DNA from: Deltaproteobacteria bacterium
GTDB lineage: Bacteria; Desulfobacterota; DSM-4660; Desulfatiglandales; Desulfatiglandaceae
Assembly (NCBI GenBank): GCA_019309145.1
Contig: JAFDGR010000001.1
Span: 1 to 64,000, forward strand
Direction of reading: 5' to 3'
DNA: 64,000 nt
Shown here: positions 26,134 to 53,456 of the stretch, one piece after another
How the letters are laid out: each line of letters begins with the position of its first letter
Position numbering within the stretch: the first letter of the stretch is position 1
Notes under the pieces: model-generated
The model's input: only the letters and a program-made list of their open reading frames with translations
Told to the model about the DNA's origin: nothing
Database searches by the model: none
Made by a program: the position numbers and the translations under genes

Positions 26134-26409
26134 ATGGCAGACTCAAGCACATTTATCAACGCGCTTGCTCCTGATGAGGTGGCAGTCTGCACCAGCGTCA
26201 TGGATCGGTGCGGCGTGCATATCAAGGCGGACGGATATGCGCCGGACGGACGACGCGCCATTATCTTCTGCCGGAAACGATGCGCCTCGGACGGGAACTT
26301 TGCCCCAGCGCTTCAGCCAGTGTCCCAAGCGTTTGTGAGAGAAGATGAGGCTCGCAAATGGCTGGAGTGGCTTGACAGCGCAGTTAAGCGGGCGGGGGGC
26401 AGGGTATGA
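26134..26409 (+). CDS. small hypothetical protein
   Basis: ORF MADSSTFINALAPDEVAVCTSVMDRC overlapping the methyltransferase start. Confidence 0.5.
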   Translation: MADSSTFINALAPDEVAVCTSVMDRCGVHIKADGYAPDGRRAIIFCRKRCASDGNFAPALQPVSQAFVREDEARKWLEWLDSAVKRAGGRV

Positions 26410-27908
26410 CGATTATTCACGGCGATTGCCTAGCCAAGATGCGCGACATGGATGCGGCGAGCATTGACCTCGTGGTTACAGACCCTCCGTACGGTGTGGT
26501 GTTCATGGGCAAGGCGTGGGACAAAGCCGTGCCGGGTATTGACGTGTGGCGAGAGTGCCTGCGGGTCTTGAAGCCGGGCGCGTTCGCGTTTGTTATGAGT
26601 CTCCCTCGTCAGGACTGCTTGGCTCGGATGATATGTAACATTGAGGACGCTGGATTCTCAATAGCCCAATCAAGCATCTACTGGGCGTTTGCCACAGGAT
26701 TCCCAAAGCTGCACTCAGTGGGCAAAGCCATCGACCGCAAGGCTGGCAAGGAGCGAGAAGTGGTTGACCGTCAAAAGCGAAAAGGCTCTGCGTTTATGAA
26801 AGAGGGGCAGAAGTGGCAATCTAATGGTAAAGCAATAGATGGGCGAAGCTCTGATCTTATTGCAATTCGTGTTGAGCAAATGTCAGCAGATGGCGTCCCC
26901 ATCACCGCCCCCGCGACCCCCGAAGCCGCCCAGTTCGAGGGCTGGTGTCCTGCAAGTTCCCTGAAACCGGCAGTAGAAGTAATCATTTGTGCGCAAAAAC
27001 CGATGAGCGAGAAGACGTATGCAGCCCAAGCGTTGGCTAGCCTTGAGGACGAGCATGTTGCACCGGGCTGTCTTAACATGGAGGCGGCGCGGATACCGAT
27101 AAATGGAGATGATGGTCAAAACTTCCGTGAAGGAAGATACGAACGAAATACTGATAATGCGGCTGTGCCATTTGGCGCAAAGCCTGGAGAACGCCCAAGT
27201 TATACGAAACATCAACATCCCCAGGGCCGCTTCCCGGCTAATTTGATAGTGGAATCAGACGTGCTTAACGACGGGCGGGTGAGAGTATCTTGTTGGGGCA
27301 AGCATTACGCAGGAGACCGACGTGGCGGGGATAGCCATGTGGACTTTGCACATAATCAGAATGAGGAGCAGATAGCAAGACAAAACGCTTTAATTGGTGA
27401 CTCCGGTTCCTTCAGCCGCTATTTCTCGCTGGATCAATGGTTCGCCAAGCGCCTCTCCGAGTTGCCCGAAGGCGTGCAGCGGACGTTCCCGTTTCTTGTG
27501 TGCCCCAAGCCCAGCAAGCGTGAGAAGAATAAGGGCTGTGAGGGGCTGGAAGAGAAGCCAGTATCAGAACGCTATCAAGGTGGTGGCGAAATAAAGACTT
27601 GGATAGACCGCAAGGATGGCAAAGGCAAAGTTGCAGTGAATGCTAAAATGCACCCAAGAGCCAACCACCATCCGACCTGTAAGCCCGTCAAGCTCATGTC
27701 TTGGCTCATAACCCTCGGCAGTCGTGAAGGCCAACTAGTCCTTGACCCGTTCATGGGCAGCGGAACTACAGGGGTGGCGGCCAAGATGCTCAACCGCCGT
27801 TTTGTGGGCATTGAGATGGAGCAGGAGTATGTTGACATAGCTGAGGCGCGTATCGAAGCGCACGCCACCCCGGCGCAGACAGAGATATTCTCCGGAGCAG
27901 CGGTATGA
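26406..27908 (+). CDS. DNA methyltransferase (N4/N6 class)
   Basis: Motif IV VVTDPPYG and C-terminal motif I LVLDPFMGSGTTGVAAKMLNRRFVGIEMEQEYVDIAEARI. Confidence 0.9.
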   Translation: MTIIHGDCLAKMRDMDAASIDLVVTDPPYGVVFMGKAWDKAVPGIDVWRECLRVLKPGAFAFVMSLPRQDCLARMICNIEDAGFSIAQSSIYWAFATGFPKLHSVGKAIDRKAGKEREVVDRQKRKGSAFMKEGQKWQSNGKAIDGRSSDLIAIRVEQMSADGVPITAPATPEAAQFEGWCPASSLKPAVEVIICAQKPMSEKTYAAQALASLEDEHVAPGCLNMEAARIPINGDDGQNFREGRYERNTDNAAVPFGAKPGERPSYTKHQHPQGRFPANLIVESDVLNDGRVRVSCWGKHYAGDRRGGDSHVDFAHNQNEEQIARQNALIGDSGSFSRYFSLDQWFAKRLSELPEGVQRTFPFLVCPKPSKREKNKGCEGLEEKPVSERYQGGGEIKTWIDRKDGKGKVAVNAKMHPRANHHPTCKPVKLMSWLITLGSREGQLVLDPFMGSGTTGVAAKMLNRRFVGIEMEQEYVDIAEARIEAHATPAQTEIFSGAAV

Positions 27909-29421: not shown

Positions 29422-29529
29422 GCGGCAGATTGGTTATATGACGGTCAGAGGGAGTGTCCACCAAAGGAGAATTGTGAAGAAGTGCGACCTAACGTATGAC
29501 AAATGGGCTGCGGCAGCAGGGCTTACAGC

Positions 29530-30297
29530 ATGAGAATAATCCATCTGTCCGACCTACACCTGACTACTGACGAGAAACACCGGAATAACCAGAACGCATG
29601 GCGGCTGGCGGAGCATATCATCAGCAAGTATGCTACTGCTCCCGGTGAGACGGTCGTTGTGGCGACCGGCGACCTCACTGACAACGCTCTTGAAGATGAG
29701 CGGCGTGCTCTGATTGCGCTCTTGGCGTTGTTGCGGATGCACTTTATTGTTTTGTGCTGCCCCGGCAACCATGACTACGCCTGCCGCGGTATTGACTTCA
29801 CGCCGGAGTCCGTCCCGCTGTTCAGGAAGGTAGTCCGCATGGACGCTCCGCCTATCGTATGGCAATCAGAGCATGAGCCGATAACGTTCATCGGCCTCGA
29901 TAGCGCTGATCCGCAAGACAATGTGTGGGTTGCTCGTGGCATCATCGGCAAGCAACAGCTGGCCGGGCTGAATAGGCTGCTTGACCTTCATAAGAAACGA
30001 GGGCGGGTGGTTGTGGTCTATCTCCACCATCATCCGATTGTGCATAAGGTCGGGTGTGCGTTGAAAGACAACATCGCGCTTATGAACCGTATGAAGGGGC
30101 GCGTAGCTGCTTGCCTATTCGGGCATAATCACGAGTCGGGCGCTTACATCGACCAATTTGACGGGCTACCGCTGCTCTTGGCTAGTGGCATGTCCACTGA
30201 ACCTGATCAGAACAACAATCTCTCATATCGGGTCATCCTGACCCACGGCGGGCGGGTTGAACAGGGCGTTTATACCGAGACAATAAGGGGAACATAA
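29530..30297 (+). CDS. calcineurin-like metallophosphoesterase
   Basis: MRIIHLSDLHL, VVATGDLTDNA, CCPGNHDY, YLHHHP, FGHNHESG: complete set of metal-binding motifs. Confidence 0.9.
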   Translation: MRIIHLSDLHLTTDEKHRNNQNAWRLAEHIISKYATAPGETVVVATGDLTDNALEDERRALIALLALLRMHFIVLCCPGNHDYACRGIDFTPESVPLFRKVVRMDAPPIVWQSEHEPITFIGLDSADPQDNVWVARGIIGKQQLAGLNRLLDLHKKRGRVVVVYLHHHPIVHKVGCALKDNIALMNRMKGRVAACLFGHNHESGAYIDQFDGLPLLLASGMSTEPDQNNNLSYRVILTHGGRVEQGVYTETIRGT

Positions 30298-39024: not shown

Positions 39025-39416
39025 CTGAAGTGGCAAACGGAGACATGGAAAGCGCGAAACAGAACGGTATGCGCTTTGGTCGGCTGGAGCAAGGACTAGA
39101 GGATACTACCAAGCGACTTGACCGACGCTCAAAGGAATGCGGGGACAAGTTTGCCGACATATTCGGACGCTTGAATAATCTGCCGGATCAGATTGCAACG
39201 GCGGTCAAAGAGCAGATTGCAACGGCGGTCAAGCCAGAAATACTGCTCGCCGTCAGAGATGAAATAGACTCCGTGCTGAATGGACGGCAGACCAATCGCA
39301 CTCGGCTAAGCAGGTATGGTCGGCCCGCCGTTCTTTGGACTGCCGTCGCTGTGATTGTCAGCGCGGTCGCAGATTTCCTTGCGCCAGTTTTAGACAAGAT
39401 GTTGAGTAACCCATGA
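39015..39416 (+). CDS. coiled-coil protein with C-terminal TM (holin/XhlA-like)
   Basis: Helical region followed by PAVLWTAVAVIVSAVADFLAPVL. Confidence 0.55.
   Translation: MELAEVANGDMESAKQNGMRFGRLEQGLEDTTKRLDRRSKECGDKFADIFGRLNNLPDQIATAVKEQIATAVKPEILLAVRDEIDSVLNGRQTNRTRLSRYGRPAVLWTAVAVIVSAVADFLAPVLDKMLSNP
39189..39232 (+). repeat. 20-nt direct repeat pair, 24-nt period
   Basis: cagattgcaacggcggtcaa at 39189-39208 and 39213-39232 (protein QIATAVKEQIATAVK). Confidence 0.9.
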
Positions 39417-39658
39417 TGGCAGATAGCGAAATGCAGATGCGGCTCGCGGTGCGCATCAAGAGCCTTATGAAGGCAGACCAGATACTACTCGGCCTCCGTT
39501 GGCAGGAGGGGCTGACCGTCTCGGAGGTTGCACAGGTGTTAGAAAGACCGGAAGACAGCATCCGCGCAGAGTTGGATAATCTATATAGAAAACTATTCAA
39601 GGGACTTGAAGGAGAAGAAACGTATGACACAAAGGATATACAGACGATACACCATTGA
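39413..39658 (+). CDS. sigma-70 region-4-like HTH protein
   Basis: LGLRWQEGLTVSEVAQVLERPEDSIRAELDNLYRKLFKGL resembles sigma region 4. Confidence 0.5.
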   Translation: MMADSEMQMRLAVRIKSLMKADQILLGLRWQEGLTVSEVAQVLERPEDSIRAELDNLYRKLFKGLEGEETYDTKDIQTIHH

Positions 39659-40025
39659 CCCGGTGCTTGCTGCGGCAACAGGGACTGGCAAGCTCTCGTT
39701 AGGGCACAAGGCGGGGATGATACGGCAGATAGCTGCTGCATGTGACTCAACCGACTTCGACCTACGGCTCGGCACAAAGACTGCGTTTGCCGATGACGAC
39801 ATATCTCAGGTCTTTCGCAGCCTGACGATCAACAAATGGCTCGTTGACAATGACCAGCCGGTATTCTTTCACAACACGTATGCAGCGGAGCCGGCTGATT
39901 GCCTCACCGAGCTATATTACAGGGTGAAGAATGACGACGGGGTCACGACGGGCGATATTGAGCTGATATTGACCATCGACATTGAGCCGGCCGTACTGGA
40001 GAGCGGGACTGCTACTGCGGACTAG
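39624..40025 (+). CDS. hypothetical protein, last gene of late operon
   Basis: ORF MTQRIYRRYTIDPVLAAATGTGKLSLGHKAGMIRQIAAACD. Confidence 0.6.
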   Translation: MTQRIYRRYTIDPVLAAATGTGKLSLGHKAGMIRQIAAACDSTDFDLRLGTKTAFADDDISQVFRSLTINKWLVDNDQPVFFHNTYAAEPADCLTELYYRVKNDDGVTTGDIELILTIDIEPAVLESGTATAD

Positions 40026-40642
40026 TCTCCGAATACTCCGAGCACTTGATCACGGTCGAGCATCAGGTGCTCATGCCCGTCAAGCGTTAGCCTGATGCCT
40101 GCGCTCTGCGAGAACATTATGCGGCTGCCTTTGGTGAACTCGTTATCGGCTGGCTCGCCGTTGAGCATCACCTTCCCGAATGCTATCACCGTGCCTGAGC
40201 TTGCCCGGCGTCTGGCCTTGTTAGGGATGATGATCCCGCCAGCGCTTGTCCCTTCTGGCGCGTCAACGGTAACAAGCAGCCGGTCGTAGAACGGGGCGAA
40301 CTCTTTGGTTCCGTCTGTGCCCTCTCGTATTTCTCCGTGGATGCCACGCACCGAGATAATCACGTATTTCTCGCCCTCCAATTCACACGGCATTGCGCCG
40401 GCTCTGGTATAAGCGACCTTCATACCAGTCCGTGCCAGCATCTTGACGAATGGCGTGAACGGTCTGTCCTCCTGTCGTGCGAGGTCGTAGCGCGTCTCAT
40501 AGACGGTGCAATCATGGCCGACAGCAACGACTGTGCCGGCCATCGACGCATCTTGGGCGCTCTCTGGGATATGGATGTGCCCTTTCATTGAGGCGCGCTC
40601 GCCAGGACGGATCAGCACAAGGTCTCGCGCGGGTTTAAGCAT
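40022..40642 (-). CDS. tandem GroES/Cpn10-like co-chaperonin
   Basis: Two successive Cpn10-like domains: ARDLVLIRPGERASMKGHIHIPESAQDASMAGTVVAVG...GMKVAYTRAGAMPCELEGEKYVIISVRGIHGEI and YDRLLVTVDAPEGTSAGGIIIPNKARRRASSGTVIAFGK...KGSRIMFSQSAGIRLTLDGHEHLMLDRDQVLGVF. Confidence 0.85.
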   Translation of the reverse strand: MLKPARDLVLIRPGERASMKGHIHIPESAQDASMAGTVVAVGHDCTVYETRYDLARQEDRPFTPFVKMLARTGMKVAYTRAGAMPCELEGEKYVIISVRGIHGEIREGTDGTKEFAPFYDRLLVTVDAPEGTSAGGIIIPNKARRRASSGTVIAFGKVMLNGEPADNEFTKGSRIMFSQSAGIRLTLDGHEHLMLDRDQVLGVFGD

Positions 40643-40672
40643 TAGTCATTCTCCTATGTCTGTCGTTAGTGG

Positions 40673-40714
40673 ATAGAATTGTCCACACTTGTTGATAAGT
40701 ATAGGCAATTCTAT
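40673..40714. promoter_or_regulatory. 9-bp inverted repeat upstream of co-chaperonin gene
   Basis: ATAGAATTG (40673-40681) ... CAATTCTAT (40706-40714), 24-nt spacer, in a non-coding AT-rich gap. Confidence 0.6.
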
Positions 40715-40832
40715 ACATATTATCTTCACTGCCCCTTATCTTCACGACACCGAACTTTTAGCCACATCACATCGCCCACTAGGAGCAAGATGTAGGCTGC
40801 GACCCCGAACTCCACGGCGTATTCAGATAGCA

Positions 40833-41524: not shown

Positions 41525-42784
41525 TCATCTTCCCTCACCATGACCCCGCGGGGGTATAATAGGCGGTCTGTGGTGTCTGTCATAGGTCTCTCCCTTCGTC
41601 TTTCCCATATCCAAAACTGTGTCTGCCGAATCCCACAGTTCGGACTCCGGCGCTACAACAAATATCGTGCCACGTCTTTTCGCTAGTCGCTTCAACATCG
41701 CCCCCAGCCGGTCCAGGGTTTCACCATCCATCATCGATAGATCTGACGCCACATCGTAATAAGCAACATGATCATTCTCGCCCACCACGTCCGCTAATGC
41801 AAATGCTGACGCAAATTGGATACATACCCGGTCGGTATGGTTGAACCGGTCCGGCGGGGGGGACAGAACGATTGCTGCCCCATGATGGGTGAACTCTATC
41901 TGTATAGGCGGTCTCAGCTGCCAAAGATACATCCACAGCCGGGCGTTCAAACACTTGCAGATGTGGTTCAAGCGTTTGGCCGGTATCGCCGAGCCGTATG
42001 CAGTATGCCAGAACTTGTATATCTTGTGCTGCCTCTCCAGCGCCTCGATTTCCTTGTCAACATCTGCTATCCGCGTCTCGCAAGCACGCTTTGCCTCAAG
42101 TTGTATCTTGAAGGCGGCCTCAGCTATGCTCAGCCCTTCCCCGCCGGTGCTGGCGGTGGCCTTTGCACGGTCCACTTTGTCGTATGCTAGGCGGATAGCC
42201 TGCTGAAATGTCCTCAGCTTCCGTTGGTGGTCGAGCTTCCGGTATTGTGTCATGTTAATCTGTTTTTTCACAGCGTCGCCTAACGCTTTGGCGCGAGCGG
42301 CCCTCTTTTCCATCATCGTGCCACCGATCAACAAGGCAGTTATCAATTTACGTCTCATTATGGTGCAATTTACATAATTCTGGAAGATTGTATTGCTCGT
42401 CCAGATATGCAGACACCCTAACATCATCGGAGAACGCTCAAATGCAGAGGCCGGCTCCACGCCCTTGCGGTTGTCCTGTGATGTTGGCTCGTTATACCCG
42501 GCGGCTGTCGGGATAATTCTGACGGCGTTCCTGGCAACTATACGGTGCTCGTAAGTGGTGGTGTCAGTGACGAACTGCACCGTGGGGATGAGACCGGGTC
42601 GTTTCAACGAATTCGTGCCGCTCGCGTCCGCCATGTGGGCGCTGAACCCCCAGAATAGCGCCTTACCGAGTAATGTCTTGCCGGAACCGCGCTCGCCTGT
42701 TACCACGACCAGCCCGCTATCACTGAAATGTTTGATAGACAGGGACAGGCAGCCAAAGTTCCTGATGTTGACCTGTTTGATCAT
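41525..42784 (-). CDS. SMC/SbcC-like AAA ATPase
   Basis: MIKQVNIRNFGCLSLSIKHF, Walker A GERGSGKT, coiled-coil middle, C-terminal SMMDGETLDRLGAMLKRLAKRRGTIFVVAPE. Confidence 0.75.
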   Translation of the reverse strand: MIKQVNIRNFGCLSLSIKHFSDSGLVVVTGERGSGKTLLGKALFWGFSAHMADASGTNSLKRPGLIPTVQFVTDTTTYEHRIVARNAVRIIPTAAGYNEPTSQDNRKGVEPASAFERSPMMLGCLHIWTSNTIFQNYVNCTIMRRKLITALLIGGTMMEKRAARAKALGDAVKKQINMTQYRKLDHQRKLRTFQQAIRLAYDKVDRAKATASTGGEGLSIAEAAFKIQLEAKRACETRIADVDKEIEALERQHKIYKFWHTAYGSAIPAKRLNHICKCLNARLWMYLWQLRPPIQIEFTHHGAAIVLSPPPDRFNHTDRVCIQFASAFALADVVGENDHVAYYDVASDLSMMDGETLDRLGAMLKRLAKRRGTIFVVAPESELWDSADTVLDMGKTKGETYDRHHRPPIIPPRGHGEGR

Positions 42785-43609: not shown

Positions 43610-44074
43610 TCATAATTCTACTCCCATGTCGTCGAGGGCGGCTCTAAGCTCATCGAAGTCTTTCTGTGTCTCAGGTTGATGGCGGATGAGGGCCTGGGCT
43701 ATATAGACTGCGGCATCACAAGCGATTGTATCCGCCGCCTCAATCAGCCGCTCGACCTTCGCGTCGTCATACCGAGGCGTTTCGCTGGCGTCAACAACGT
43801 GATCAGGTTTGACCTCTGGCGGTGCTACCTGCGTGCAATCGTCGAGGTTGTTGGCTATCCTACGTCTGTCGTCAGGGCACTCTTGGTGTAACATTCTTAC
43901 TCCGTCGATCATGGTGTTGGTTTTGTGGGAGGCATCAGGAACACAGCCAGACCCGTCGCATGTTCCGCAGCGGCTTTCGGGGTGTGTATGATAGCCAGCG
44001 CCGCCACATTCAGGGCATTCGACCATATTGCTGACGCCAGCAACATGGTCAACCGTGTCTTTACGTTCGCTCAT
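43610..44074 (-). CDS. DnaJ-type CXXCXGXG zinc protein
   Basis: CPECGGAGYHTHPESRCGTCDGSGCV. Confidence 0.65.
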   Translation of the reverse strand: MSERKDTVDHVAGVSNMVECPECGGAGYHTHPESRCGTCDGSGCVPDASHKTNTMIDGVRMLHQECPDDRRRIANNLDDCTQVAPPEVKPDHVVDASETPRYDDAKVERLIEAADTIACDAAVYIAQALIRHQPETQKDFDELRAALDDMGVEL

Positions 44075-44307
44075 CTCGCCACCGCCTTTATGATATATCC
44101 AGCGCCTCCACACTTACTGCACCATTCTTGACCTGGCGGGTTTGGAATGAAACCTATGCCCGTGTCGTTACACTGATCGCAATTCTCAATCACGTCATTG
44201 GAGTCATTATATGCAGGCTGGTTAACCACATCACGCAAAATGCTACGCGATATGCGACGATTGACTGATGATCTACCTGTAGGGACAATTATTGTTGATA
44301 TGCTCAT
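44071..44307 (-). CDS. DnaJ-type CXXCXGXG-like zinc protein
   Basis: CDQCNDTGIGFIPNPPGQEWCSKCGGAGYI. Confidence 0.6.
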   Translation of the reverse strand: MSISTIIVPTGRSSVNRRISRSILRDVVNQPAYNDSNDVIENCDQCNDTGIGFIPNPPGQEWCSKCGGAGYIIKAVAR

Positions 44308-44762
44308 CTCGCCACCGCCTTTCCGGCAACGATATGGTGAGTGAGTGCGTGTCCAACCCTTGAGATACTACCAATTCCAAATCGTTGTTCTAGACCATAT
44401 AAATCATCCCCGTAGTCAGAACCATACCCGCTACTCCATAAACCTACTGTCCACGAATGTAGATCGTTTGACCACTCCAGCATCTGAACACCAATGCTGC
44501 AATCACAATCATCGCTCGTCGTAAGCAAATCCCCTTGGCAGAACTCATCCGTTACCTGCTCGCATACTATACACCGCACATCGTCCGGGATGTTCTCAGG
44601 GTCGAGGTCGCGGAGCATGACGGCTTTAATATAACCATGGAAGCTGTTTTCCATTTGAACCCATATATCACTATTCCAAAGGTGTTTTACGCTGTTCCAA
44701 TTACCGAGTTCCCATGGGCTATTCTCAGTATCTCGCACATACACACTATATCGCTTGCTCAT
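44304..44762 (-). CDS. YopX-like paralog (DPENIPDDVRC family)
   Basis: MSKRYSVYVRDTENSPW ... LRDLDPENIPDDVRCIVCEQVTDEFCQGDLL. Confidence 0.65.
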   Translation of the reverse strand: MSKRYSVYVRDTENSPWELGNWNSVKHLWNSDIWVQMENSFHGYIKAVMLRDLDPENIPDDVRCIVCEQVTDEFCQGDLLTTSDDCDCSIGVQMLEWSNDLHSWTVGLWSSGYGSDYGDDLYGLEQRFGIGSISRVGHALTHHIVAGKAVAR

Positions 44763-45288
44763 TTACCTCTCCGTCATTCATTACGTGTCCCCTTTTTCGC
44801 ACTACCCCATTACTAAGGCTGTCTGGGCCTTCGTGATGCAATATCAGATTGGAGACGGGATGTTCTCTCGGTTTTATGATTTCGTCGATGAGAATATGGC
44901 CGACTGGATCATCAAACTCAGATGTAACTTCCCAATGGTCAAAGATAGATAGCACGAGGGGGGCTCTACCAGCCAACGCACCGCACTTTGCTTTAATGAG
45001 GTGTACATCTTTTTCGTCTGCTACAATATCACCCTCAAAGATGCCGTCTGGGGCATCTGGTAATTGTGCACACACCACACACCGCACATCATCCGGGATG
45101 TTCTCAGGGTCAATGTCGCGGAGCAGGGCGGTTGATATGTCAGAGTAGTATCGTGGCGCTTGCATATTAGGCCACAGGGTCACATGCTCTAAGCCGGATT
45201 TTGTGAACCAAATGGTAAAGTTCTCAGTCCATTTCTTGAACGGGCTGTTCTCGTTATCCCTTACATACACGCTAAATTGCTTGCTCAT
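44746..45288 (-). CDS. YopX-like paralog (DPENIPDDVRC family)
   Basis: MSKQFSVYVRDNENSPF ... LRDIDPENIPDDVRCVVCAQLPDAPDGIFEGDIV. Confidence 0.65.
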   Translation of the reverse strand: MSKQFSVYVRDNENSPFKKWTENFTIWFTKSGLEHVTLWPNMQAPRYYSDISTALLRDIDPENIPDDVRCVVCAQLPDAPDGIFEGDIVADEKDVHLIKAKCGALAGRAPLVLSIFDHWEVTSEFDDPVGHILIDEIIKPREHPVSNLILHHEGPDSLSNGVVRKRGHVMNDGEVNEQAI

Positions 45289-45878
45289 TATTTGCCCTCC
45301 GTTAGTCGTTGTTGTTCCATGACCCTGCCCCACTGCTCGTCTGACACACCATCGGGTCGGTCGGCGTCAGTGATGGTGAAAATGCTGCCGAGGATAATAG
45401 TGGGAGATGATTGTGTTATTCGCCACAATGTATCAAGATGCCTATTAGTGAAAATGAAATGCCAAGCACCCTCTAGCCACTTTACTGTACCAACACCAGC
45501 GAGAGACCCAATAGCATTATGCCTAACCCTTAGTATGTCCCCCGGATAGATCATGGCAAGGACGTAGCCAGTGCCGCCGCAGATAAGACAGTCAACTATG
45601 TTGGTATTGTTGCCGGCTTGGTTCACAAGTTGCCATTTGCCCTTGCCGTAGCACTTACTGCACACCTTCTTGCCCCAGACACCGGTCGGGCGGAGAATGG
45701 TAAGGCCCTCCATCAATTCCCATTTTTTGTTGTTGCCGTCCCAGATGTAGGTTTCCCGCCCGTCGGGTCCGATACCATCAAGGATTGGGACGTCCAATAT
45801 CATTTTGTCCTCTGGTATATACGCCCTCAGGGGCCATTGATTGCCGGGGTGTTCGCCGATTACATCTTGGATGCTCAT
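45288..45878 (-). CDS. zinc-motif protein with CXXCXGXG pair
   Basis: CSKCYGKGKWQLVNQAGNNTNIVDCLICGGTGYV; stop overlaps next start. Confidence 0.6.
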   Translation of the reverse strand: MSIQDVIGEHPGNQWPLRAYIPEDKMILDVPILDGIGPDGRETYIWDGNNKKWELMEGLTILRPTGVWGKKVCSKCYGKGKWQLVNQAGNNTNIVDCLICGGTGYVLAMIYPGDILRVRHNAIGSLAGVGTVKWLEGAWHFIFTNRHLDTLWRITQSSPTIILGSIFTITDADRPDGVSDEQWGRVMEQQRLTEGK

Positions 45879-46672
45879 CTCACTGTTCCTCCCTTGATTC
45901 GTTCAAACGCCGAGGCCGCCGAGGCCTCGCTGATTTCGATGCCGATTGAGCGCCGGTTCATTGCCCTCGCTATGACGCTGGTTGTGCCGCTGCCGAGGAA
46001 GGGGTCAAGGACTAGGTCGCCCTCGTCCGAACAGGCCGCGATGACCCGCCGCATGTAGAGTTCGGGGATTTGGTTGGGATGACCTTTTCGGCGCTCCTTG
46101 TTGTTGCCCTGGATACGCCCTAAGCCCCTCCCATACCAAACGTCTAACGGAACCCGCTTGCCCGGCCTCCGCGTCTCTTGAGTTCGCTTGTCGTTGTATT
46201 TGGATGCCCTGTCGGTCGGCACGAGTATCGCGTCGGGGTTCCACGTGCGCCGCTTGATGTCGCGGGCGAAATACAGGGCGTGCGTGTGGCTCGATATGAA
46301 GCGAGAATCGTTGCACTGGCCGAAGCGGTAGTGCCAGATGCACCAGTTGACGAGAGTTAGGCCTTCTTCGTAGTCCGTCATAATGTTGTTCACAAGGACT
46401 GCCATGCTGTCGGGGACGTTGACCCACATTGAGCCGGTCGGCGAAAGGATGTTAAGGCAGGCCAGTATCCAGTCGGTTGTGAAATCTACGTTGTCGAGTG
46501 CCGATTTGTGGTCGTCGTATCCGATGTAATTTTGCCCGATCCCAAACGGCGGGTCGGCGAAGATCAGGTCGGCCTTGACGCCTGATGACGAAAGTTTTCC
46601 AAGAATCTCACGACAATCGCCGACGTAGATTTGTGTGTGGGGGTCAGCGAGTTGATGTGTTGGGCCGCTCAT
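45875..46672 (-). CDS. DNA methyltransferase (N4/N6 class)
   Basis: ADLIFADPPFGIGQNY and LVLDPFLGSGTTSVIARAMNRRSIGIEISEASA. Confidence 0.9.
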   Translation of the reverse strand: MSGPTHQLADPHTQIYVGDCREILGKLSSSGVKADLIFADPPFGIGQNYIGYDDHKSALDNVDFTTDWILACLNILSPTGSMWVNVPDSMAVLVNNIMTDYEEGLTLVNWCIWHYRFGQCNDSRFISSHTHALYFARDIKRRTWNPDAILVPTDRASKYNDKRTQETRRPGKRVPLDVWYGRGLGRIQGNNKERRKGHPNQIPELYMRRVIAACSDEGDLVLDPFLGSGTTSVIARAMNRRSIGIEISEASAASAFERIKGGTVR

Positions 46673-47259
46673 TCTTCCTCCAACTGTTGCAGATTTGGCA
46701 AGAGTTCAAATGTGCCGGTTTTGGTATTCGATTTAAGACTTGCGAGGTTTATGTCGCTTGCTACTTCATCCCCCCAACAGTCCCAATTATCAACCCTTGT
46801 TCTGGCAAATAACTCAATGCGCGGTTCAGGCGAAAAGCGCTCAATCAATTCACGAAACTTGTGTGGTTTCTGAGAATGTTTGGATGTTGGGGACGCCAGC
46901 CAGTTGAGAGTGGCCTTCTCGTGCCGACCTATACTTTTCGTTGCTCCACGCGATGCGATGATAAGGTGTTCGGTTGCATTTCTTGGATGGCCGCCTATCC
47001 CGTTGTTCTTGCACCATGTCCACAACATCCGATATTGAAAGCCCCAGAACTGGACTATGCCGAGCGCTTCGGGCAGGAACTGATTGGTCGTCCAGAGGTA
47101 TAGGTTGCTTAGGTCGTCCGCAATTTCTTTCACAGGCAGAGCGCATAGCTGGGCGATTGTCATCGTCCGATATTGCAGTGGCTTGGTTCCGATTGATGCA
47201 CTGCCTTGCCATTTGATAGGCCACGGCGGGTCAGCATAGATGGTCTGATAATGCTTCAT
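46669..47259 (-). CDS. MT-A70-like adenine methyltransferase
   Basis: YQTIYADPPWPIKWQG, LYLWTTNQFLPEAL, ATEHLIIASRG, SQKPHKFRELIERFSPEPRIELFART. Confidence 0.9.
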   Translation of the reverse strand: MKHYQTIYADPPWPIKWQGSASIGTKPLQYRTMTIAQLCALPVKEIADDLSNLYLWTTNQFLPEALGIVQFWGFQYRMLWTWCKNNGIGGHPRNATEHLIIASRGATKSIGRHEKATLNWLASPTSKHSQKPHKFRELIERFSPEPRIELFARTRVDNWDCWGDEVASDINLASLKSNTKTGTFELLPNLQQLEEE

Positions 47260-47997: not shown

Positions 47998-48849
47998 TCA
48001 TTTTTGTTTCGTTTCCCCGCCCAGCAGGGCTATCAGCTTTTTCAACTCACGAGAGATATTGATATAGGCATCGCATGTTGGGGAGCCGGTTTCATTATCT
48101 CCATAAGTGGCACCGGTGTAGCCGAAGCCGGGATCGTCCTCGAAAAACTTTGCTATCTTCTCCAGCGTCGGCATCATCTGCTCGCGGAGGTGAGTCTGGT
48201 AGCGGAGTATGGTATTGCCTGTTGAGCGGTAGTTATCAAGGTGCACGTTAGCCATGATAAACAGGTCGTAAGCCATGAAAAGAATTGGGTCAGTTTCGGA
48301 TGCTATCTTTAGGCGAAGTGCTATACAGATTGCTTCACTGTATGCTATCCTATGATACCCCATCTCCACGTCCTCAATGTAGAGCAGGACTTGGGGGATG
48401 GGATTGCTTATTGTGCCCAAGCCGTTACATTTTGGACACGGGGTTAAACGGAATACGCCATCCCTCCGGCTGGCAACATAGGGGGCACCGTCTAATCCGA
48501 TAGCTTTGTAAGAGGTTCTGCCTTGTTGTTTGATGTTACAAGTGCCCCCGCAAGTCGGGCAAGGTGTATGGGAATACACCGCCAGCCACAGCGCCACGCT
48601 TTTGCTCCGGCCTCTAGGATGCTTGCCGCCTGTGCCGTTGCATACCTGACACGTAATCGTTTCTGTGTATTCTGATGGGGTTATACGCACATCTTCGCTG
48701 TCAATGTGATGCTGACCGCGCCCATTGCAGATAGGACACACATCCGCCCCCCTCATCCGGTCGACGGTGTCGGGCACGATCAAACCTTCAGACTTGGCCT
48801 TCTGGCGGATGGCTGTGCAGGCTATGGCGTCAAGGGTTTGTGTGGTCAT
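47998..48849 (-). CDS. multi-CXXCXGXG (DnaJ zinc-finger-like) protein
   Basis: CPICNGRGQ, CQVCNGTGG, CPTCGGTC, CPKCNGLG; N-terminus MTTQTLDAIACTAIRQKAK. Confidence 0.7.
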   Translation of the reverse strand: MTTQTLDAIACTAIRQKAKSEGLIVPDTVDRMRGADVCPICNGRGQHHIDSEDVRITPSEYTETITCQVCNGTGGKHPRGRSKSVALWLAVYSHTPCPTCGGTCNIKQQGRTSYKAIGLDGAPYVASRRDGVFRLTPCPKCNGLGTISNPIPQVLLYIEDVEMGYHRIAYSEAICIALRLKIASETDPILFMAYDLFIMANVHLDNYRSTGNTILRYQTHLREQMMPTLEKIAKFFEDDPGFGYTGATYGDNETGSPTCDAYINISRELKKLIALLGGETKQK

Positions 48850-52313: not shown

Positions 52314-53229
52314 GGGGGGTATCCTCTTGAGTTAATTCACTATGAGCGGCTTTATGCTCATAGAACTCGTTTAGCACGTCCTCACTGTCGCGGGACGAGC
52401 ACAGCTTAAAATAGGAACATGGCTTGTTGAACCGGAAGCAGGCCTGCCGGTCTTGGAGCCACATCCCGGACCGCGTACATCGACGCCAGCGGTTGGTCAG
52501 TTCCCAGAGCTCGGCCTGAAGTCGCCGCCGGTCATTCATATCGTAGAGAAACGTGAACCGCTGGAACGCGTCAGGCTCGGACAGCTTCTCGGCAAGCCGC
52601 GCTTGAAACGCCTCGTCTGTCTCAGGCTCTTTGCGGCGCTGGTTGGCCTCGAACTGTCTGATAGCCGGCTTTTTGAGTAGGTTGTAGATGACGCCCACCG
52701 GGCTGTCACCTGCAACGTTAGAATAGATGTCGGCCTGTAGCGACAGGTTCAGCCCCTCGATGTAGGCCGCGTCAATGGTGGCCGCGGTTTTGTGCTCAAC
52801 CACATAGGCCCGGTCATTTACCATGACTGCTAGGTCAATCTTGCCGCATAGCCTAAAGGTATGAGAGCCCCAGCCTGTTGCGGGGTTTTTGAGCGGCTGG
52901 TCAAACTCATGCTCAATAGCGACTACCCCCCAGTTGTCGAGGACATAGCGATTCATGTAGGCCAGCATCATGGCCCGCGCATAGTGCCAGTGCTTGCGCG
53001 CCGTCGCGTCGTAATGCCTCTCGGTATAGTTGTCATCGATGAGCGCTAGAACGCTTTCAGAACTGCCGTCCTTATACCACGACGCCAAACACTCGTGGAT
53101 TAGCGAGCCGAACGTCAGGGCGTCATCCAGCCGCACCGGAACCATCTCACGGATATATCGCCAGTATGCGCGGCGCTCGCAGTGCAGGAACGTTGACCAC
53201 ATGGTGTAGGTGGAGATTTGTTTATTCAT
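52300..53229 (-). CDS. RecB/Cas4-like PD-(D/E)XK exonuclease
   Basis: ISTYTMWSTFLHCERRAYWRYI, FGSLIHECLASWY, AYVVEHKTAATIDAAY, NLSLQADIY. Confidence 0.8.
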   Translation of the reverse strand: MNKQISTYTMWSTFLHCERRAYWRYIREMVPVRLDDALTFGSLIHECLASWYKDGSSESVLALIDDNYTERHYDATARKHWHYARAMMLAYMNRYVLDNWGVVAIEHEFDQPLKNPATGWGSHTFRLCGKIDLAVMVNDRAYVVEHKTAATIDAAYIEGLNLSLQADIYSNVAGDSPVGVIYNLLKKPAIRQFEANQRRKEPETDEAFQARLAEKLSEPDAFQRFTFLYDMNDRRRLQAELWELTNRWRRCTRSGMWLQDRQACFRFNKPCSYFKLCSSRDSEDVLNEFYEHKAAHSELTQEDTPHATT

Positions 53230-53456
53230 CCGCACAACTCATCCGTTACCTGCTCGCATACTACACACCGCACATTGTCCGGGATGTTCTCAGGGTCAAT
53301 GTCGCGGAGCATGACGGCATTGCAAGCGTCTCCGCCAATATAGACGAAAATCACTCCATCGCCGTAGAACCGCACATTATCAACCAGGCCTAACTCGCAC
53401 TTATACCATCTAGGGTCGTTGTCAAATCGCCTGAATACTTGCCACATCTTACTCAT
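53226..53456 (-). CDS. DPENIPD(D/N)VRC family paralog (short)
   Basis: MLRDIDPENIPDNVRCVVCEQVTDELCG. Confidence 0.6.
   Translation of the reverse strand: MSKMWQVFRRFDNDPRWYKCELGLVDNVRFYGDGVIFVYIGGDACNAVMLRDIDPENIPDNVRCVVCEQVTDELCG

Follow-up and report, generated by a model that had tools for sequence, protein, structure and literature searches.

The phage genome described here encodes a 206-aa protein that is made up of two complete Cpn10 domains, a result far beyond chance, and that by analogy with chloroplast Cpn20 is likely to be a Cpn20-type co-chaperonin that caps host GroEL to fold phage proteins. Phage GroES proteins and the tandem Cpn20 are both known already, and the databases contain no fewer than one further phage tandem. 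The double Cpn10 structure was called specific to eukaryotes of plant lineages in a 2013 paper (PMC3542282); together with ORF64 of Flavobacterium phage MaF61, the protein described here places it outside those lineages, in phages of bacteria.

Phage genome and host

The window, a stretch of 64,000 bp, corresponds to positions 1-64000 of a contig of 67,328 bp with an exact 114-bp repeat shared between its two ends. The joined ends are spanned by a separately assembled IMG/VR contig (49,883 bp) with 300 of 300 bases identical, and the genome is therefore circular-mapping. At 67,214 bp, it is the complete circular genome of a phage. Two IMG/VR pieces show no mismatches and two indels against the contig over the stretches compared. 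The genes encoded include a portal, a head protease, a Mu gpT-like major head protein, a large terminase, a tape measure protein, an M15 peptidase endolysin and DnaB, and the contig is that of a tailed phage. The tandem gene lies within this genome, and its preliminary description as phage-encoded is upheld by the portal, capsid, terminase, tape measure and endolysin genes on the circular contig.

The same description reported no GroEL in the window, which is true of the whole contig. The Cpn60 matches of the assembly are found only on two other contigs, C214 and C397, and a phage GroEL elsewhere on the phage contig is ruled out by the empty Cpn60 search of that contig. The bin holds two complete bacterial GroES/GroEL operons (C214:22548-24451 and C397:6838-8750), and two GroES genes are also usual in most genomes of the bacterium's family. 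A DprA protein of the bin shares 84% identity with one of Deltaproteobacteria bacterium B46_G9. The bacterium of the bin is taken as the host of the phage, with binning as the only basis for the assignment.

Sequence evidence for two Cpn10 domains

The features of the tandem protein and its gene are listed in Table 1.

Table 1. Features of the tandem co-chaperonin gene and its upstream region
Feature	Position	Strand	Evidence
Tandem GroES/Cpn10 co-chaperonin, 206 aa	40022..40642	-	ORF, Pfam, AlphaFold model, fold search
Domain 1, residues 1-108, divergent Cpn10	40319..40642	-	Pfam E 5.8e-11 alone; hhalign E 1.8e-8
Domain 1 mobile loop, residues 13-36, tripeptide IHI 23-25	40535..40606	-	Alignment
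Domain 1 enlarged roof segment, residues 43-72, predicted helix 64-71	40427..40516	-	Alignment, model
Short linker, residues 106-112	40307..40327	-	PDB sequence match, model, alignment
Domain 2, residues 113-206, conventional Cpn10	40025..40306	-	Pfam E 3.3e-18 alone; hhalign E 1e-20
Domain 2 mobile loop, residues 128-150, tripeptide III 137-139	40193..40261	-	Alignment, hhalign
Shine-Dalgarno GGAG, 8 nt before ATG	40651..40654	-	Sequence
Imperfect inverted repeat, two 21-nt arms	40670..40717	.	Sequence

Two consecutive Cpn10 barrels with two mobile-loop-like segments had been proposed for this protein, along with an HMM search against Cpn10, and the search bears the proposal out. With the whole 206-aa protein as query, Pfam PF00166 is found twice (E 6.6e-30), and each half scored by itself exceeds the gathering cut-off of 21.1 bits, with 42.7 bits for half 1 (residues 2-103) and 66 bits for half 2. 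Both halves also match PHROG 3188 (co-chaperonin GroES). When 17 phage GroES proteins other than the tandem protein are made into an independent profile, hhalign aligns it over 90 columns with half 1 and 93 columns with half 2. The alignment places a mobile loop with its hydrophobic tripeptide in each domain, both loops being of ordinary length. PHROG 13932 was considered as a known tandem family and rejected, as the match is confined to its C-terminal part.

Domain 1 is about 20-30% identical to other GroES proteins, and its identity to those of other phages does not exceed 32%. For domain 2 the values are 35-37% to bacterial GroES and 34-36% both to the MAG's own GroES and to one Cpn20 half. 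Halves 1 and 2 are not each other's closest relatives, and a recent internal duplication is out because they are as unlike as unrelated GroES proteins are.

GroES genes commonly travel as cargo, and domain 2 is similar to bacterial GroES, as would be the case if a host-derived GroES gene had been acquired and fused with small effect on infection. This is quite improbable: the reading frame and functional motifs are intact in spite of the high divergence of the halves, both mutual and from cellular forms, and the GC content and codon third positions of the gene agree with those of the phage. Together these observations suggest a long residence of the gene under constraint.

Predicted structure

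AlphaFold2 modelled the whole protein from an alignment in which 15 single-domain sequences cover domain 2 and none covers domain 1. The model has a pLDDT of 76.9, a pTM of 0.67 and one barrel per half, the GroES-like barrel of domain 1 being predicted without any alignment row over it. Domain 1 predicted alone and without an alignment, an uninformative setting, gives no fold (pLDDT 37). The lowest-confidence internal stretch of the whole-protein model (residues 18-27) falls in the mobile loop of domain 1.

The best PDB sequence matches of the tandem protein are Cpn20 and Cpn23. The best solved folds against the model are chains R and Q of 7ekq, the Chlamydomonas Cpn20 and Cpn23, which align over about 210 columns and both domains (TM 0.61 and 0.58, E 2e-8 and 4e-8, respectively), and the likeness to the Cpn20 tandem noted beforehand is found in both sequence and fold. 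The placing of the two domains relative to each other is loose in the model, with an rmsd of 6.5 A to Cpn20. GroES chains align over about 95 columns with a target TM of up to 0.8, and T4 gp31 (1g31) is a weak fold match (E 0.07). The structural comparison with GroES and Gp31 that had been suggested thus yields a predicted GroES-like barrel in each half and a weak match to gp31.

The segment between the conserved roof-flanking glycines is 30 residues long in domain 1, against 17 in the MAG's GroES and 15 in domain 2. The 30-residue roof segment with its predicted helix, and the pairing of a conventional domain 2 with a divergent domain 1, would fit a modulator and not a replacement of GroES. 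Domain 2 alone would then dock on GroEL, and domain 1 with its large roof would do something else: it might hold a phage client, for instance, or enter host GroES rings and so alter or block them. Additional roles have been proposed for the excluded domain of Cpn20 (PMC3542282), and judging from its divergent sequence, domain 1 could have lost GroEL binding. The mobile loop of domain 1 is nevertheless of normal length and retains the I-x-I tripeptide, and we regard a modulator as unlikely.

Gene and surroundings

The ORF begins with ATG and belongs to a leftward block that is read from high to low coordinates. The preliminary description placed the gene first in this block after a regulatory-looking gap; the gene in fact comes last in it, and the gap does exist, as 190 bp (40643-40832) directly upstream. 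The gene is convergent with the last rightward ORF (39606-40025), and the ends of the two overlap by 4 bp. From its sequence, the inverted repeat within the gap is a possible operator or terminator. Promoter-like and terminator-like matches in the upstream stretch of the gene are only slightly above chance expectation.

Tandem genes are a usual site of assembly or frame errors, and such an error could in principle have merged two genes here. That is extremely improbable, given that the gene is also carried without mismatch by a separately assembled IMG/VR contig, that it is single copy within the bin and that MaF61 shares the architecture.

An 81-aa sigma-70 region 4-like protein (39413-39658, + strand) is encoded at the end of the late operon and is a candidate late regulator. 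A short SbcC/AAA_23-like ATPase of 419 aa is encoded at 41525-42784 (- strand); the usual SbcC is larger.

Occurrence of the tandem form in phages

Phage co-chaperonins had been described as single-domain, and a survey of phage genomes for the tandem form had been proposed. The statement stands for 43 of the 44 loci found in IMG/VR with a GroES profile, a pattern search biased toward conventional GroES, and the remaining locus belongs to the same phage; it fails for MaF61 ORF64, which is also a tandem. The tandem form in phages is rare, not unique. INPHARED contains no record covering 80% of the 206-aa protein. Among the matches listed for about 340 same-phylum genomes (61 near relatives and 297 phylum-wide), there is no tandem GroES. 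Close relatives of the tandem protein are absent from GTDB genome contigs and in IMG/VR come from the same phage only, which is also all that the phage terminase search returned. A literature search, with subscription papers outside it, found no description of tandem GroES in phages.

MaF61 ORF64 is a protein of 187 aa with two Cpn10 stretches, and its first half alone is identified as Cpn10 by hhalign (E 4.8e-7). The gene adjoins a phage GroEL, and the protein has no match in IMG/VR. Unlike the tandem described here, ORF64 has no long domain 1 roof; the two proteins are 23% identical.

Four BFVD models (183, 304, 186 and 200 aa) can be aligned with the tandem model over both of its domains. 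The 200-aa model is that of gp096 of Cellulophaga phage phi18:3, annotated as 'chaperonin cpn10' (S0A356, TM 0.50). This protein and its near-identical group resemble the tandem in having a C-terminal Cpn10 and a model that can be aligned over both domains. They differ in that the first half of gp096 is not recognisable as Cpn10 by sequence, and in their source, a flavobacterial phage. Based on the models, gp096 is a probable tandem. A 187-aa 'hypothetical protein' is encoded near the terminase gene of MW202828.1 (Caudoviricetes sp., 1896-2459), and judged by eye it looks like a divergent tandem Cpn10 of the phi18:3 type.

Comparison with known co-chaperonins

The phage protein resembles chloroplast and apicoplast Cpn20 (Chlamydomonas CPN20 and CPN23 of PDB 7ekq, and Plasmodium Cpn20) in its head-to-tail pair of Cpn10 domains in one chain, its two mobile loops and its short linker, the length of which is near that of Cpn20. 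It differs from Cpn20 in being encoded by a phage in a prokaryotic setting, in its far more unequal halves and in the enlarged roof segment of domain 1. The two tandems are about 20% identical and, judged by sequence identity, give no sign of common tandem ancestry; their halves are 22-36% identical, which is not above the values for single-domain GroES. Plasmodium Cpn20 alone substitutes for GroES in E. coli (PMC3542282).

With T4 gp31 the protein shares its phage origin and the use of host GroEL, which is known for gp31 and expected here. Unlike the tandem, gp31 is a single domain; its mobile loops are longer (22 residues versus 16) and its roof loops are absent (PMC6318259). Through these two traits gp31 enlarges the cage. 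The phage tandem has two domains, ordinary loops and a longer roof in domain 1. In view of this enlarged roof versus the long loops and missing roof of gp31, the tandem protein does not appear, from its sequence and model, to be gp31-like in how the chamber might be changed.

Proposed function and ring composition

As the contig is without a GroEL, the tandem protein would have to partner the GroEL of the host. In the favoured reading, a Cpn20-type co-chaperonin, the two GroES domains are joined head to tail and each mobile loop could dock on a GroEL apical domain. During infection the protein would cap host GroEL and favour phage protein folding, as the single-domain subunits of T4 gp31 do. 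Host GroEL binding, expression during infection and client proteins are features that we infer for it.

The domains are added in twos, and a pure ring would therefore offer six or eight of them to the seven sites of GroEL. The symmetry of the ring is thus probably mismatched to the host folding chamber. One option would be an even-numbered ring with one site empty or excluded; rings with six or eight covalently linked GroES domains do function with GroEL, either a site staying unoccupied or a domain being excluded (review PMC5780408). The other would be a hybrid in which three phage chains and one host GroES make up seven domains. Hybrids of that size are formed by Cpn20 with Cpn10 (review PMC5780408), and the chains of PDB 7ekq, one Cpn11, two Cpn20 and one Cpn23, add up to seven domains. 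We give the even-numbered homo-oligomer about an even chance, the hybrid with host GroES a slightly smaller one, and any other make-up a slim one. It is a more tentative proposal that host GroEL is taken over through a seven-domain hybrid cap in which the roofs of domain 1 alter the chamber ceiling for phage clients. If true, such a cap would be a chloroplast-like hybrid co-chaperonin ring that evolved independently in phages. The tandem offers a prokaryotic system for the question of an even-numbered co-chaperonin serving a seven-fold chaperonin, and also bears on whether phages poison, replace or hybridise host GroES.

Other genes of the phage

A calcineurin-like metallophosphoesterase is encoded within the tail/structural gene block (29503-30297, + strand). 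Three DNA methyltransferases are present, at 26406-27908 (+ strand), 45875-46672 (- strand) and 46669-47259 (- strand); their kinds include N6_N4_Mtase, another phrog_67 type and MT-A70. The 500-aa methyltransferase has an apparent long internal insertion, with residues 20-480 matching a 221-position profile.

Three paralogous small genes (44304-44762, 44746-45333 and 53226-53456, - strand) encode a common motif like 'ALLRDIDPENIPDDVRCVVC', and we know of no family to which they belong. Their DNA recurs as a repeat, at about 45 kb versus 53.2-53.3 kb. Three further genes on the same strand (43610-44113, 45288-45878 and 47998-48849) encode unrelated-looking proteins with DnaJ-like CxxCxGxG zinc-finger repeats, one of which has a weak match to antitermination protein Q.
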